Source: a virus
Reading direction: 5' to 3' (one strand)
Length of the DNA: 22,051 bases
Virus record (IMG/VR): IMGVR_UViG_3300007538_000220
Location: 1 to 22,051 of that record
Of this stretch, positions 2,260 to 8,533 are shown piece after piece (position 1 is the stretch's first letter; every line of letters begins with the position of its first letter). Position numbers and translations under genes: made by a program. The notes below the pieces were generated by a model, which was not told where the DNA came from, did no database searches, and saw only the letters and a program-made list of their open reading frames with translations.

Positions 2260-3239
2260 AAAATGTTTTCTATTTAAGTATGGTTGAAGATGATGCTGCT
2301 TCGTTTTACAGAACGAATGGTGTCTTTCCGTTTTTAAATCATGAAGAAATTTCGGTAAAGAATATTTTTAATCCTCAAAAAGTCTATGGATGGGAGAGTT
2401 TGATAGGTGCAGACATTTTTGTCTTTCAAAGGCCATATCATGAGCATCATGTTAACCTGATAATGATGGCAAAGGATATGGGCATTAAAGTTATTTGTGA
2501 ATATGATGATGATTTGCTTAATGTTCCATTTCATAACAATGCAGCAGTTACACTAACAGAGCAAAGGGCAAACATTAAAAAGGCATTAAGTCTTGCCGAT
2601 GAAGTATGGGTAACAACAGAATCAATTAAAAAAGAATATCGTTTTTACAATAGGAATATATATGTTATTCCAAATGCTCATAATGATTATTTATATCCAA
2701 TAGAAAATAAAAAGCCATTTGATAAAACAAAAAAGATTGCTGCATACAGGGGTGGGGCAAGTCATGAGGCAGATATGTATCAAAATATAAATGATGTTGT
2801 TTCTACAATAAACAATAATACAGATTGGGAATTTAGATTTCAGGGAAGCAGGTTTAAATTTTTAGAAGATAGGACAAGTGATAATCATACCTATACAGAC
2901 CCATTTACAATTATGCAGTTTTATAAAAGCTATCATGATTTGAACCCTAACATAGCTTTCTTCCCATTGATTACAAACACATTCAATGATGGTAAAAGTA
3001 ATATATCATTTTTGGAAGCCACGTATGCGGGTGCAGCATTTATGGGAAATAGGAATTTATCTGAATTTAATTTACCTTTTGTTATACCTATTCAAAATGG
3101 TTTTAAGGATGAATTTGAAAAAGTAAAAAATGATTTTTACCGATTAGAGATATTAAATAATGATTCTTGGAGTTGGATTTTAGAAAACAGATTATTGAGC
3201 AATATAAATAAACTAAGAGTAGAGAGAATATTATCATGA
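2256..3239 (+). CDS. GT-B fold glycosyltransferase (GT4-like)
   Basis: A 327-residue glycosyltransferase of the GT-B fold. The N-terminal Rossmann half carries the acidic segment EYDDDL at 82-87 and the VWVTTESIKKEY segment near 118-128, followed by the interdomain VIPNA at 137-141. The C-terminal half opens with YRGGASHEAD at 164-173, which resembles the donor-phosphate loop (usually W-x-G). The C-terminal block at 235-259 contains FFPL, the ND-G-KSN segment and LEATYAG; E254 lies where the EX7E-type nucleotide-sugar ligand is expected. This arrangement is common in phage and surface-polysaccharide glycosyltransferases. It is joined by ATGA overlaps to the small gene upstream and the GroES-like gene downstream. 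No signal peptide or membrane segment is seen, so it should act in the cytoplasm. Donor and acceptor are unknown. Confidence 0.82.
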   Translation: MKNVFYLSMVEDDAASFYRTNGVFPFLNHEEISVKNIFNPQKVYGWESLIGADIFVFQRPYHEHHVNLIMMAKDMGIKVICEYDDDLLNVPFHNNAAVTLTEQRANIKKALSLADEVWVTTESIKKEYRFYNRNIYVIPNAHNDYLYPIENKKPFDKTKKIAAYRGGASHEADMYQNINDVVSTINNNTDWEFRFQGSRFKFLEDRTSDNHTYTDPFTIMQFYKSYHDLNPNIAFFPLITNTFNDGKSNISFLEATYAGAAFMGNRNLSEFNLPFVIPIQNGFKDEFEKVKNDFYRLEILNNDSWSWILENRLLSNINKLRVERILS

Positions 3240-4090
3240 AGCCAAATTTAAATTACATTTTAATTTTACCTGAACCTGTTGTTGAAAGTAAATTTATTTT
3301 TACTCCTGATACTATTGCAAAATCTTATACAAAAGGAACAGTTGTTAGTACAGGAGATGGTTGCTATAATCAAAAGACAGGAGATTTCAGGCCAGTTCAA
3401 GTTAAAGTTGGCGATAAGGTTGCCTATACACCAAATGTTGGTTATTTGGTTGATAATGATGGTAAGGCTTGTGTTTTATTAAGGGAAGAAGAGATATTTA
3501 CAGCAAATGGTTTTCCCATTAATGATTGGATTGGTATTAAATTCGATGAAAGTCACAATAGAACAGTTAATGTAGGCGGCATTCAGATTGCAAGACCTGA
3601 AACGTGGGTTTATCAGGAGTTTGATGATAAAACTATGTATGAAAACAATAAAGATTTAAAAGCCACAAATCCTCAAATAGCACATATTCTAAATTCCAAT
3701 GTGAAATATGGTTTGCAAAAAGATGACTTAGTGTTTGTCCACTACTTGCAATATAATTCTGATTTAATTATTGATGGTATTAAATACATTCCATTTAATA
3801 CAATATTTTTTAAGATAAACGGTAAAGATGATTTTGAAATGGCCGATGGTATTTTGCTTGCTAAAAGAATACTTGTTGAAGCACCAAAAACAAATTCGGG
3901 TATATTTTTAAGTTCTGTTGAAACTAAAAAAGAACCATTAAAGCTTGTTATAACACATATACCAAGAGATTCAAAATTAAAAACAGGAGATATTATTATA
4001 ACTGAAGATGATTATCAATATGAGATTGATGTTTATAATGAAACCTATGTTAAAATAACACCAGATTGGATTGCTGCAACAATTAGTTGA
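3236..4090 (+). CDS. Triple GroES-like domain protein (putative co-chaperonin)
   Basis: A 284-residue protein that reads as three consecutive GroES (Cpn10)-like domains, at about 5-89, 94-194 and 202-279. Domain 1 has the classical pattern: a starting strand (ILILPEPV), a loop (KFIFTPD), KGTVVSTGDG, VKVGDKVAY and a closing LLREEEIFT. Domain 2 repeats it, with loop GGIQIA at 114-119, a longer insert at 125-150, KDDLVFVHY, then IDGIKYIPFNTIFFKI. Domain 3 is compact: GILLAKRILVEAP, loop SGIFL at 221-225, LKTGDIII and a closing YVKITPDWI. Each domain keeps a hydrophobic tripeptide where the GroES mobile loop contacts GroEL (IFT, IQI, IFL). GroES is normally about 95 residues and heptameric. Phage co-chaperonins such as T4 gp31 are single-domain, and chloroplast Cpn20 is double. 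No GroEL is seen here, so host GroEL is the likely partner (inference). Confidence 0.72.
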   Translation: MKPNLNYILILPEPVVESKFIFTPDTIAKSYTKGTVVSTGDGCYNQKTGDFRPVQVKVGDKVAYTPNVGYLVDNDGKACVLLREEEIFTANGFPINDWIGIKFDESHNRTVNVGGIQIARPETWVYQEFDDKTMYENNKDLKATNPQIAHILNSNVKYGLQKDDLVFVHYLQYNSDLIIDGIKYIPFNTIFFKINGKDDFEMADGILLAKRILVEAPKTNSGIFLSSVETKKEPLKLVITHIPRDSKLKTGDIIITEDDYQYEIDVYNETYVKITPDWIAATIS

Positions 4091-4091
4091 T

Positions 4092-5021
4092 ATGGGAGTA
4101 AGTGGTAGAATTGGAAGCGTAGAAGTTATACATGAAATTGCAAAAATTTCTAATCAAACGCAAGCTGCTGTTCAAGGTACAATAGACGCTTATCATCAAA
4201 TCATATTAAGGGAATTGAGAAATAACAATACGGTTTCCTTTAAAAATTTTGCAAGTTATGCTTCGGGTTACAGAAAATCAGGTCTGATAAATCCGCAAGG
4301 CGTAGCCATTATTGGCTCTAATTCGGCAAAGATTATTCCCTCAAAGAATATGCGCCATGTTATAAACTCTACCGAACCTATTGAGTTTGATTTGGGTTTA
4401 TTTGAAACAGTCCAGAGCAATACTATTATTAAGCTTAAAAAAGAAGTCAAGAGGTTAATCACTTCAAGGTATCGTGCATCAAAAAGAGCCGACATTCTTA
4501 GGGATAAGTATAACAAAAGAGTAAGGGAAATTTATAATAGTACAAAAGAAATAAGAAAGGTTCATAGGTACAAACAAGCATCTGCTCTTTTAATAAAACG
4601 CAGGGCAAGGAACTTATTGAATGATAAGATATTGAGAAAACGCATCAACTCAACCTATTTTTTAGATGCCATCACAGCTTTCCCTGTATTAACAGAATTT
4701 TATAAAACTCAAAGCTTAACGATTAATGAAATAAATATGTTCATTATTGTCAATCACTTTGAGTATTTTACTGTAAAAGATTCTGAATTATTTGGATTTA
4801 AAAAGGCTACTGCCTTAACTGTTCTGAATACATTGCATGGCGCAGGATTGCTTGAAAAATTTACTGGTCATTCAAATAAGTATTCAGTTAGTCTTAGTGG
4901 TAAAAGAAAGTTTACCAATTTTTCAAGAGAAATAAATAGCGGTGTTCGTAGGTTATTGAATAAATATAGGGATAAAGTAAAGGATGAAGATGAAAGTTTA
5001 CCTGTAAAATTTAAAGATTAA
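4092..5021 (+). CDS. HU/IHF-like DNA-binding domain fused to basic linker and putative winged helix
   Basis: A 309-residue protein starting at the ATG just after the upstream stop (TGATATG). An in-frame TTG at 4071 would add 7 residues inside the previous gene and is less likely. Residues 7-92 resemble a HU/IHF fold: helices GSVEVIHEIAKISNQTQAAV and IDAYHQIILRELRNN, the strand TVSFKNFASYASGYRKSG, then IIPSKNMRHVIN, matching the return strand and C-terminal helix. Residues about 112-190 form a Lys/Arg-rich helical stretch, possibly coiled coil. Residues about 195-282 look like a winged helix, with helices INEINMFIIVNHFEYFT and KKATALTVLNTLHGAGLLEKF and a hairpin ending YSVSLSGKRKF. IHF-like proteins are known next to the structural genes of crAss-like phages. 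A virion-packaged or genome-organising DNA binder is likely; a late regulator is the alternative. Confidence 0.7.
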   Translation: MGVSGRIGSVEVIHEIAKISNQTQAAVQGTIDAYHQIILRELRNNNTVSFKNFASYASGYRKSGLINPQGVAIIGSNSAKIIPSKNMRHVINSTEPIEFDLGLFETVQSNTIIKLKKEVKRLITSRYRASKRADILRDKYNKRVREIYNSTKEIRKVHRYKQASALLIKRRARNLLNDKILRKRINSTYFLDAITAFPVLTEFYKTQSLTINEINMFIIVNHFEYFTVKDSELFGFKKATALTVLNTLHGAGLLEKFTGHSNKYSVSLSGKRKFTNFSREINSGVRRLLNKYRDKVKDEDESLPVKFKD

Positions 5022-5025
5022 TATC

Positions 5026-5421
5026 ATGGTAGGAAAAGAATTGGCAAAACTTCGTAGCGGAATAGCAGATGTTGACAATTATATTGAGAAGCTTGAAGAA
5101 AAGGTAAATGCTATCAATGGTTCAAATACATTAAGGCTTATTACATCAATAGATTCTATGGCAGGTAAGATTGCTACCGATATTGATATGATGGCAAATG
5201 GTCAACAAGATGAAGATGGAAATGAAGTTGAAATATCTCATAAGATTGTTGATACCTTTATAAAACTTATTGATAAGTCAGATAAGATAAAATCATTCTC
5301 TGAAGTTGTTGAAGCATTGCGAAGTTTGGATGATGATTCAGATACAACAAAGGTTGGAGAAAGTATTTTTGAAAAAACCGAAAGAAAGATAAAGAGCAAG
5401 CTGAATGGCAAGACAAATTAA
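5026..5421 (+). CDS. Hypothetical protein directly upstream of TerL; small-terminase candidate
   Basis: A 131-residue acidic protein that I do not recognise by sequence. Residues 1-35 (KELAKLRSGIADVDNYIEKL and onwards) have the heptad look of a short coiled coil. The centre is helical with an acidic stretch (QQDEDGNEVE near 70-79), and the C-terminus turns basic (KTERKIKSKLNGK). The size, mostly helical composition and position immediately before the large terminase are those of a small terminase subunit, but no helix-turn-helix can be pointed to, so this is positional inference only. Its 3' end overlaps the TerL ATG at 5405 by 17 bases, suggesting translational coupling. If TerL instead starts at the ATG at 5426, the genes would not overlap. 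Confidence 0.6.
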   Translation: MVGKELAKLRSGIADVDNYIEKLEEKVNAINGSNTLRLITSIDSMAGKIATDIDMMANGQQDEDGNEVEISHKIVDTFIKLIDKSDKIKSFSEVVEALRSLDDDSDTTKVGESIFEKTERKIKSKLNGKTN

Positions 5422-8400
5422 AATTATGCTTCAGGGTTTGGAATATGTGACACCCGATGTTCCAAAGCAGATTCGTGGCAGAGATTTAATGAAGCGTGAC
5501 CAAGTTTGGAGTAGAGATACAACATATTTACAATGGGATTGGAATACTGACCCTGCACAGGGATTTGTATGGCACGAGAAGCCTGCAAAGGGTCAGATTG
5601 AATGGTATGAAGCAGAAATAGAAAGACTGCATACAGGTGCGTGGATAATGATTTACGGTGAACCTGTTTACTTTAATAAGTACGCTTATTTCTTTCATCA
5701 ATGGTTTATGCTTCAGGAGGGCATATACCCTATTTTTAAAGACACCTCATTAGAATATTTTCGTTTTTATCAGATATGTGAAGATGATGACTTTACATTG
5801 GGAGATTGTGGAATAAAAGGAAGGCGTGTCGGTCTTTCATCAATGAAGGCATCCATAAATCTACTTATAGGTTTACTTGAAGAAAATACATTGCAGGGTA
5901 TTGTATCTAAAACAGGTACGGATGCAAAGGAAATGTATTTAATGGTAAAGAATGGATTGGAAAACTTGCCAGAGTTTTTGATGCCCGATTTGGCTAAGGT
6001 TGCAGAAACTGAATTGCACATAGCAAAACCAAGAAGTAGAATATCGACAAATAATAAAACCGTTTCGGGGGATAAGGGTAAGAATAATCGTATTAATTGG
6101 CTTTCTACTGCTGAAAATGCTTACGATGGTCGTAGAGCAAGAAATATTACAATAGATGAGTGTATGTCACCTGATACTAAAATATTGTGTGATGGCTTTG
6201 TATTTAGGGAGATAAAGGATATTAATGTTGGTGATTACATTATTGTAGAGGGCGGAAAAAGAAAGCGTGTAGCAAAGGTTTTTAATGGGCAAGATGAAAT
6301 GTTTTTGGTAAAGCAACCGTATTCTAAGGATTATGTTGTTTCATCAAAGCATAGGCTTTATTTGGAGCAAAGGTGCAGCGTTAAAACTATCAAAGATGAT
6401 GGAATAAAAATTATTACTCCATTAGAAGCAATTAATTTAGGAAAGTATAAAAAAAGAACAACCTATGGCGTAAGAAGTTCTGGAATTGATATAAAATCAA
6501 AACAAAATTTAATTGACCCATATATTTTTGGGGCTTGGATTGGCGATGGATTTAGTCAAGCTATGGGGTTTATTGTAAATTATGAAGATGATTTAGAATT
6601 GTATGAATACATAAAGTATTATGGCAAAGGTTTAGGGTATAATGTTTCTGAACATAAAGTGTCTAATAGCAAAAAGGTAGTAAGACTTTATTATACAATG
6701 GCTGAAAGAGGCAAGGGAACTTATACAAACCCATTAATGGATGAATTAAAGAGGTTGAATGTATTAAACAACAAGCATATACCAAATGAATATTTATTTA
6801 ACTCTCGCGAAAATAGATTAAAATTATTGGCAGGCATTATTGATACTGATGGTCATTGTTCAATTAAAAAGGGTTCAATACATATTACGATGTCCAATAC
6901 TGAAATTATTGACCAAATAATATTTTTATGTAGGTCTTTAGGGTTATCAGTTTCTAAAAATAGAATAAGCAAAACAAATTTTAATACAAGCTCTTACAAA
7001 GTTTCTATAAGTGGAAACCTTTCAGAAATACCAACAATATTAAAAAGAAAACAATTTAATGGATATGTTCAGCAGTCTAAGTATAGAAGAAACGGAATTG
7101 AAGTTTCATCAATAGGTATAGGCGAATATGTCGGTATTCAAGTAGAAGCAACCAACGACGACGATAGAAGATTGATATTGGAAGATTTTACTTTGACAAT
7201 GAATTGTGCAAAGTGGGAGGAAGCCAATGTAGAAATTTGCTTAGCTAAAATAAGCGAAACTCTTGTTATTGGTGCGTCTGTTATTGGTCATGTATCGGCT
7301 TTTAGTTCGGTAAATAGAGGTGATAAAGGTGGTAACAACTTTAAAAACATTTGGCTTGGTTCAAATCATTTAGGGAAACTTGACTCAATAGGTCAAACAG
7401 AAACAAGACTAAAAAGATTTTTCCTTGAAGGCTATCGTGGATATTTTGGTTATATTGATAAATACGGAAATTCTGTAATTGAAAATCCTACTCCAGAACA
7501 AACAGCATATTTAACAAAACTTGTTGACCCAACAACAGGAAAGAAGGCTTGTCCAAATCCTAAGATAGGAGCAAAGCAATATATTCAAGAAAGAAGGTCT
7601 TTACTTTCAAACAATCCTGAAAAATTATCAGAGTGGGTTCGTATGTACCCATTTGAATGGCAGGAAGTATTTAAGGATTCAAATAATATGTGCCACTTTA
7701 ACTTAAATGAGTTAAATGAACAGATATTAAGTATTGAGTTAGAGCTTGAAGGTAAAAACAAATCAGAGAATGGTCGTGTTGGCTTATTTAAAAAACATGA
7801 TAGCGGAGAGGTTTATTTTGTAGATAATCCAAAGGGTATGTGGTATATCTTAGAATTTCCTGATAATAACAATAGGTCTGTTTATAATGGAAGTATTAAA
7901 TGCCCAAATAATACAAGTTATGGCGCTTCAGGATTAGATACATTTGCCAATGCAAAACAAACTGTTGAAAAGGGTTCTGATGCCTGTTGTATTATTCATA
8001 AAAGATATGATTCTTTAAACCCAGACGAATCTAATATGCCAATAGCTATGTTTATTGGAAGGCCTAAAACGAAAGAAGAATTTCATAGTCAGATTTTTTA
8101 TGGTCTTGAATATTATGGCATAAAGATGCTTGCTGAAAGAAGTCCTACGGATTGGGAGGATTATGCTATTACAAAAAGATACGCTTCTCCTCTTGATAGT
8201 TCAAAGAAACATGGTTATTTGATTAGCACAAAGCGTTCAAACAATTCAGAGGTTTATGGTATTGCTCCACAAGATAAAGAAGCGAGAGAGCAGCATTTAA
8301 CAGAAATGGTTGAATATGCTTTAAATAATATGCACAAAATAAAGTTTTTAAGACTATTAAAGGATATGGTTAATTTCAATATTAACTCTCGTACAGACTA

Positions 8401-8533
8401 TGATGCTTGCATGGCATGGGGTTATGCTCTTATGGGATTAAAAGAACATCAGTTGGCAGTTAAAAAAGTAGACAATAGCAAGTTAAAAGTATTTCATATT
8501 TTCAACAAGCCTGCTGCACAAAAATATCACTAA
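5405..8533 (+). CDS. terL: Terminase large subunit interrupted by an intein
   Basis: ATP-driven DNA-packaging motor and nuclease. The 1042-residue precursor holds a 348-residue intein (residues 253-600). The joined exteins make 694 residues, near the usual length for large phage TerL proteins. The ATPase has a deviant Walker A loop, GRRVGLSSMK at 139-148, and Walker B ARNITIDE ending at D251-E252. After the intein the protein resumes at C601 as CAKWEEANVE, so the mature active site reads IDECAKWE. A Ser/Gly-rich segment with HVSAFSS and RGDKGGNN near 629-645 fits the coupling-motif region. The C-terminal RNase H-like nuclease shows D845 (GLDTFANAKQ), E911 (LAERSPTDW) and D1000 (DYDACMAWGYAL) as likely metal ligands. 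The annotated ATG overlaps the previous gene by 17 bases; the ATG at 5426 is an alternative. Packaging should depend on splicing, because the intein separates the catalytic Asp-Glu from the rest of the ATPase. Confidence 0.93.
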   Translation: MARQIKIMLQGLEYVTPDVPKQIRGRDLMKRDQVWSRDTTYLQWDWNTDPAQGFVWHEKPAKGQIEWYEAEIERLHTGAWIMIYGEPVYFNKYAYFFHQWFMLQEGIYPIFKDTSLEYFRFYQICEDDDFTLGDCGIKGRRVGLSSMKASINLLIGLLEENTLQGIVSKTGTDAKEMYLMVKNGLENLPEFLMPDLAKVAETELHIAKPRSRISTNNKTVSGDKGKNNRINWLSTAENAYDGRRARNITIDECMSPDTKILCDGFVFREIKDINVGDYIIVEGGKRKRVAKVFNGQDEMFLVKQPYSKDYVVSSKHRLYLEQRCSVKTIKDDGIKIITPLEAINLGKYKKRTTYGVRSSGIDIKSKQNLIDPYIFGAWIGDGFSQAMGFIVNYEDDLELYEYIKYYGKGLGYNVSEHKVSNSKKVVRLYYTMAERGKGTYTNPLMDELKRLNVLNNKHIPNEYLFNSRENRLKLLAGIIDTDGHCSIKKGSIHITMSNTEIIDQIIFLCRSLGLSVSKNRISKTNFNTSSYKVSISGNLSEIPTILKRKQFNGYVQQSKYRRNGIEVSSIGIGEYVGIQVEATNDDDRRLILEDFTLTMNCAKWEEANVEICLAKISETLVIGASVIGHVSAFSSVNRGDKGGNNFKNIWLGSNHLGKLDSIGQTETRLKRFFLEGYRGYFGYIDKYGNSVIENPTPEQTAYLTKLVDPTTGKKACPNPKIGAKQYIQERRSLLSNNPEKLSEWVRMYPFEWQEVFKDSNNMCHFNLNELNEQILSIELELEGKNKSENGRVGLFKKHDSGEVYFVDNPKGMWYILEFPDNNNRSVYNGSIKCPNNTSYGASGLDTFANAKQTVEKGSDACCIIHKRYDSLNPDESNMPIAMFIGRPKTKEEFHSQIFYGLEYYGIKMLAERSPTDWEDYAITKRYASPLDSSKKHGYLISTKRSNNSEVYGIAPQDKEAREQHLTEMVEYALNNMHKIKFLRLLKDMVNFNINSRTDYDACMAWGYALMGLKEHQLAVKKVDNSKLKVFHIFNKPAAQKYH
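6161..7204 (+). mobile_element. LAGLIDADG homing-endonuclease intein in TerL
   Basis: In-frame intervening protein element, precursor residues 253-600. Block A is CMSPDTKILCDGF with Cys1 as nucleophile, followed by the INVGDYI segment. Block B is VVSSKHRLYL, with H316 as the expected His. Two dodecapeptide motifs mark a LAGLIDADG endonuclease: FGAWIGDG at 375-382 (D381) and LLAGIIDTDG at 474-483 (D482). The C-terminal end is LILEDFTLTMN followed by extein Cys601. The terminal Asn and +1 Cys are canonical, but the penultimate residue is Met where most inteins have His. Such variants are known and can splice, often using other residues to assist Asn cyclisation. The insertion point directly follows the Walker B Asp-Glu, a highly conserved site that suits homing between related phages. 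Confidence 0.93.

Follow-up and report, generated by a model that had tools for sequence, protein, structure and literature searches.

The window, by which we mean the whole 22,051-nucleotide stretch of viral DNA analysed here, contains a terL open reading frame (ORF) that is interrupted by an intein (Table 1). The element corresponds to residues 253–600 of the TerL precursor, between the flanks ...RNITIDE and CAKWEE..., such that the ligated exteins would amount to 1042 - 348 = 694 residues. A search of genome contigs with the full TerL ORF returned no relative. Upstream of terL, an ORF at positions 3236–4090 encodes a GroES/Cpn10 domain at the N-terminus (Pfam E 7e-16) and approximately 190 more residues fused to it; in an elemo phage, a GroES gene is located just before terL. 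The ORF at 4071–5021 shows a weak similarity to HU/IHF at its N-terminus (Pfam E 4e-4, under the cut-off), and tandem genes for a Glycosyltransferase family 2 protein and a PLOD-type glycosyltransferase occupy positions 1–1415, upstream of the head genes.

Table 1. Features of the terL locus, with positions counted along the window
Feature	Positions	Strand	Description	Basis
terL ORF	5405..8533	+	1042-aa precursor (694 aa once spliced)	PHROG terminase large subunit, E 3e-63; relatives in Flavobacterium and Cellulophaga phages
N-extein	5405..6160	+	252 aa, ends ...NITIDE (Walker B)	Intein-less homologues align up to its end; D-E invariant
Class 1 intein	6161..7204	+	348 aa, C1 ... T-M-N	
Block B	6329..6364	+	DYVVSSKHRLYL; His64 = B:10, Arg65 = B:11	Alignment
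LAGLIDADG motif 1	6521..6550	+	YIFGAWIGDG; intein Asp129 = ORF D381	
LAGLIDADG motif 2	6824..6853	+	LLAGIIDTDG; intein Asp230 = ORF D482	Pfam Hom_end, LAGLIDADG_3; PI-SceI match
Block F	7121..7180	+	GEYVGIQVEATNDDDRRLIL; clade-specific 4-residue insertion, no His	
Block G	7181..7204	+	EDFTLTMN; penultimate Met347, then Asn348	
C-extein	7205..8530	+	442 aa, starts CAKWEE	
+1 Cys	7205..7207	+	Nucleophile; Ala in intein-less alleles of the window lineage	
First 62 C-extein codons	7205..7390	+	Counterpart in the mini-intein allele is a foreign, putative co-conversion tract	

The element exceeds the Pfam cut-offs for Hom_end and LAGLIDADG_3, falls slightly under that for Hom_end_hint, and is matched to PI-SceI by phmmer at 8.5e-16. 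An AlphaFold model that covers the element plus five residues of either flank (mean pLDDT 86, pTM 0.87) has a HINT fold and can be superimposed on PI-SceI over the whole length (Z 31.6, rmsd 3.2, 339 residues). Cys1 is found in 24/24 members of the clade described below. The block B motif T-x-x-H reads S-S-K-H64 in the window and T/S-x-x-H in all 24 members, with Ser for Thr in 7 of them. The C-terminal end is N348 followed by C+1 in the window, and Asn followed by Cys or Ser in the clade. The usual penultimate His is absent from the window intein, where the residue is Met347. Both LAGLIDADG Asp residues (D129 and D230 of the intein) are present and conserved, in agreement with a sequence-only reading of this DNA that had reported D381 and D482 of the ORF as retained.

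The same reading had placed the insertion directly after the Walker B Asp-Glu of TerL (ITIDE/CAKWE, with a slash marking the site). A profile of the intein-free TerLs gave 0 matches among PDB sequences, and the Walker B assignment is based on two other observations: the Asp-Glu is invariant in 14/14 intein-free TerLs, and it aligns with Walker B of a TerL family that has a canonical P-loop (hhalign E 1e-4, probability 57%). Thus, the element is inserted directly after the catalytic acid pair, as originally described.

Empty alleles and traces of transfer

The window lineage is represented in IMG/VR by 14 contigs: 10 without the element, 3 with the full intein and 1 with a shorter intein; of the full copies, two match the window at 100% identity and could come from the same phage. 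The intein-less alleles, whose N-exteins are 92–98% identical, read ITIDE/AAKWEE. Because these empty alleles are precise, the splice ends are exact. The comparison of terL alleles with and without the element therefore excludes misplaced ends and, together with the class 1 features and the HINT fold, bears out the earlier identification of 6161–7204 as an intein. As the +1 residue is Ala in the empty alleles of this lineage, a native Cys+1 was rejected, and the Cys codon came in with the element. Cys+1 is seen in three more distant intein-free TerLs (L058:827, L059:2061 and L068:461, reading LDE/CAKW or LDE/CGKW); these sites are either pre-adapted or scars left where an intein was lost precisely.

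Inteins at the same site are also present in a second TerL lineage, the Ser lineage, whose intein-free members are approximately 27% identical to those of the window lineage. Here 3/80 sampled alleles are occupied and 77/80 are empty; the native +1 residue is Ser in 75 of the 77 empty ones, indicating that an imported nucleophile is unneeded there. In one contig (L115:3300-3302), a stop codon replaces the catalytic Glu codon directly before an intact same-site intein, reflecting either an assembly error or a dead allele.

Comparing the window with contig 3300011114_000650 gives a dS of 1.25–1.5 for the exteins and 0.10 for the intein, where extein values of around 1 or more approach saturation and serve as a contrast only. 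The two inteins are near-identical from approximately residue 58: dS is about 0.03 across the endonuclease and 0 over the final 29 residues. A further trace of transfer lies next to a natural 149-aa mini-intein that occupies this TerL site and is known from one 4.5-kb contig, 3300042502_001819 (L023:310-756). Compared with the empty allele L026, this allele shows 98.1% identity both upstream of the site and beyond codon 65, versus 74.9% over the 65 codons directly after the site, with a break at codon 62. The amino-acid states within the foreign tract are largely those of other intein alleles, and C1, A32, L51, S61 and I62 of the first 62 C-extein codons are common to all intein alleles of the window lineage. 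Such a foreign tract of 62 codons is the signature expected of homing co-conversion, or else of recombination with an intein-bearing donor. The low endonuclease dS and this tract indirectly suggest that the homing endonuclease is live.

The C-terminal splice site and its accompanying changes

Searches with the element and with profiles recovered complete same-site inteins on 45 IMG/VR contigs (44 complete copies plus L155, several of them near-duplicates), of which 37 end in M-N, 8 in L-N and none in H-N. The frame is open in all complete copies. A tree of 36 inteins unites the 24 distinct same-site ones in a single group with 100/100 support, and the 12 outgroup inteins all end in H-N, as do 77/77 further viral inteins sampled from the PI-SceI-like superfamily. 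This clade-wide occurrence of Met or Leu rules out the Met of the window as a one-off mutation. The non-His penultimate residue that had been singled out at the start, which means that Asn cyclisation would have to rely on something else, is thus a character of the whole clade. We found no paper on an intein with a penultimate Met or Leu in the open-access literature, and none on this TerL insertion site in environmental phages in open-access titles and abstracts; such absences are no proof of novelty.

Other positions are specific to the clade as well. B:11, the residue directly after the block B His, is basic in 24/24 members (23 Arg, 1 Lys). It is basic in 0/12 of the H-N relatives, which have Ile, Val or Glu, and in 0/73 readable sequences among the 77 other H-N inteins, which have Ile, Val, Leu, Thr or Asn. 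Gln327 (24/24) and an Arg or Lys at position 336 (24/24), beside the 4-residue insertion in block F, are also restricted to the clade. Aligned column by column, blocks F and G of the clade contain no His anywhere. Just 39 of the 77 H-N relatives have His at F:13, while 17 have Arg there; the lost block F His was for this reason rejected as a special trait.

The penultimate residue and B:11 also vary in a set of TerL inteins inserted at the P-loop (L010–L020, from IMG/VR), which are class 3-like. L010–L013 have a penultimate Ser and Arg at B:11, and their sisters L014–L020 a penultimate His and Leu at B:11. Here the two positions have changed together independently of the window clade. The main Met/Leu–Arg B:11 co-change is one evolutionary event, to which the class 3 contrast adds another outside class 1. 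Some inteins beyond this superfamily carry Arg or Lys at B:11 even though their penultimate residue is His, and a basic B:11 is thus insufficient evidence of a replacement role. Near the ends of the L010 and L017 TerL ORFs there is an apparent start of a second intein, cut by the ORF end, which lies either a short way past Walker B (HIECFSEETFVRV...) or at a more downstream position (GNCVTGESNLDV...).

The mini-intein lacks the endonuclease and has a diverged linker, with all splice residues kept, including Arg B:11 and the M-N/C end. The mini-intein is modelled (pLDDT 79) with a HINT fold close to that of Prp8 mini-inteins. The dN/dS of the splice blocks is 0.06–0.12 between the mini-intein and the window, and that of the splice segments among Ser+1 members is 0.01–0.19 where dS could be estimated.

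In published work, about 5% of functional inteins have no His at G:6, the penultimate position, and His at F:13 and G:6 is not required in all inteins (PMC4031507). For the Ssp DnaE intein, Arg B:11 was proposed to change its orientation and help the Asn to cyclise (PMC4031507); a search for Arg73 of DnaE under that name found no paper in the open-access literature. By analogy, Arg65 may take over the role of the missing His, which would be consistent with the Ssp DnaE precedent.

Predicted splicing and alternative explanations

Based on these observations, we suggest with considerable confidence that the element is a class 1 intein made mobile by a PI-SceI-type LAGLIDADG endonuclease, and that it splices by the standard pathway and carries out a His-free Asn cyclisation with Arg65 as the substitute. 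It most likely splices efficiently with a His-free C-terminal active site. In the predicted reaction, an N-S shift at Cys1 would be followed by attack of Cys+1, cyclisation of Asn348 with His missing from both the penultimate position and block F, and a final acyl shift. Met or Leu would pack at the penultimate position, and Arg65 (B:11), perhaps together with Arg336 of the block F insertion, would replace the missing His. The endonuclease would spread the element among phages by homing, carrying along the +1 Cys codon and the downstream flank.

The same intein could use a substitute other than Arg B:11: the block F insertion (Arg336, Asp333), the invariant Gln327, water or an extein residue. 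Gln327 and Arg/Lys336 are as clade-specific as the basic B:11, which makes this a possible reading, if a somewhat doubtful one. Arg B:11, however, has both a proposed precedent in Ssp DnaE and a second independent co-change, whereas Arg336 is located in a segment that has no counterpart in the relatives. With Arg65 as the preferred substitute, we tentatively propose, as an idea with a little less than an even chance of being right, that the Walker B TerL inteins constitute a class 1 catalytic subtype in which Asn cyclises without His at F:13 or G:6 and Arg B:11 plays the penultimate-His role, and that loss of His with gain of a basic B:11 is a recurrent, predictable switch across intein classes.

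It had also been speculated that the missing His slows Asn cyclisation, delaying TerL activity and timing packaging. Given the invariant Asp-Glu, an insertion at this point would leave the ATPase inactive until spliced, and Asn cyclisation is often rate-limiting (PMC4031507). Yet occupancy is sporadic (3/80 alleles in the Ser lineage, 4/14 contigs in the window lineage), so that relatives package without an intein, which makes a conserved regulatory role less likely. In addition, no sensor motif was seen, Met/Leu is fixed in a divergent clade under purifying selection and kept in the mini-intein, and the accompanying changes look compensatory. A penultimate residue other than His is compatible with good splicing in known inteins, and changing Gly to His in the mycobacteriophage RDF intein made splicing slower (PMC5050341). 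We therefore find slow or conditional splicing unsupported, and improbable as an explanation. The absence of His from both usual positions could be taken to mean that the element has decayed, with splicing lost along with the His and TerL either a dead allele or supplied otherwise. Against this, every complete copy has an open frame, and the splice residues kept in a mini-intein devoid of endonuclease, the purifying selection on the splice blocks and the HINT-fold model of the mini-intein make decay of splicing very unlikely. TerL is, moreover, essential in tailed phages. Less credible still, to the point of being negligible, is that the window element is a class 3 intein: related TerL inteins among the matches (L010–L020) are class 3-like, with A1 and the residues W, C and T, but Cys1 is invariant in the clade, block F contains no Cys, and neither a non-nucleophilic residue 1 nor the W-C-T triplet is found.

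Relation to known inteins

How Asn cyclises without the usual histidines is a mechanistic question that has so far been based on isolated examples. The TerL inteins provide a natural clade with fixed His loss and candidate compensating residues. The 149-aa mini-intein should be easy to express, and the matching empty alleles in near-identical backbones are suited to homing assays. If splicing is quick, these inteins would be an addition to the toolbox of His-independent inteins.

PI-SceI (the Sce VMA1 intein) and phage helicase and TerL inteins, such as those of KpV2811 TerL and the Bacteroides phage BS162P1 helicase, have the same full-length HINT and LAGLIDADG architecture as the window intein, with C1, the block B His and the Asn end; identity to the related phage inteins is 28–33%. 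Unlike the window clade, PI-SceI and the phage relatives end in H-N, and the sampled phage relatives have Ile or Val at B:11 and are mostly inserted at the P-loop Gly-Lys/Thr site. The Ssp and Npu DnaE inteins resemble the window intein in being class 1 without a penultimate His, but they are split, have no endonuclease and carry a penultimate Ala or Ser. They also keep the block F His, which the window clade lacks.

Among phages of Bacteroidetes, TerL inteins are likewise known from the crAss-like group (PMC7886860). The TerL intein of cr118_1 differs from that of the window in occupying another TerL site and ending in H-N/C. The sequences L089 and L138 of this uncultured phage (Crassvirales) include an intein ending in H-N in the portal protein, annotated plainly as portal, besides the one at the different site in TerL. 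The mycobacteriophage class 1 inteins, which include TerL1-e in Walker B, are, like the window intein, phage terminase inteins at ATPase motifs (PMC5050341). According to the same paper, penultimate Gly, Lys and Ser occur among mycobacteriophage inteins, and one of these inteins splices better without His (PMC5050341). These substitutions are scattered and, in the passages considered, carry no link to B:11 (PMC5050341), in contrast to the clade-fixed Met/Leu of the TerL inteins described here.
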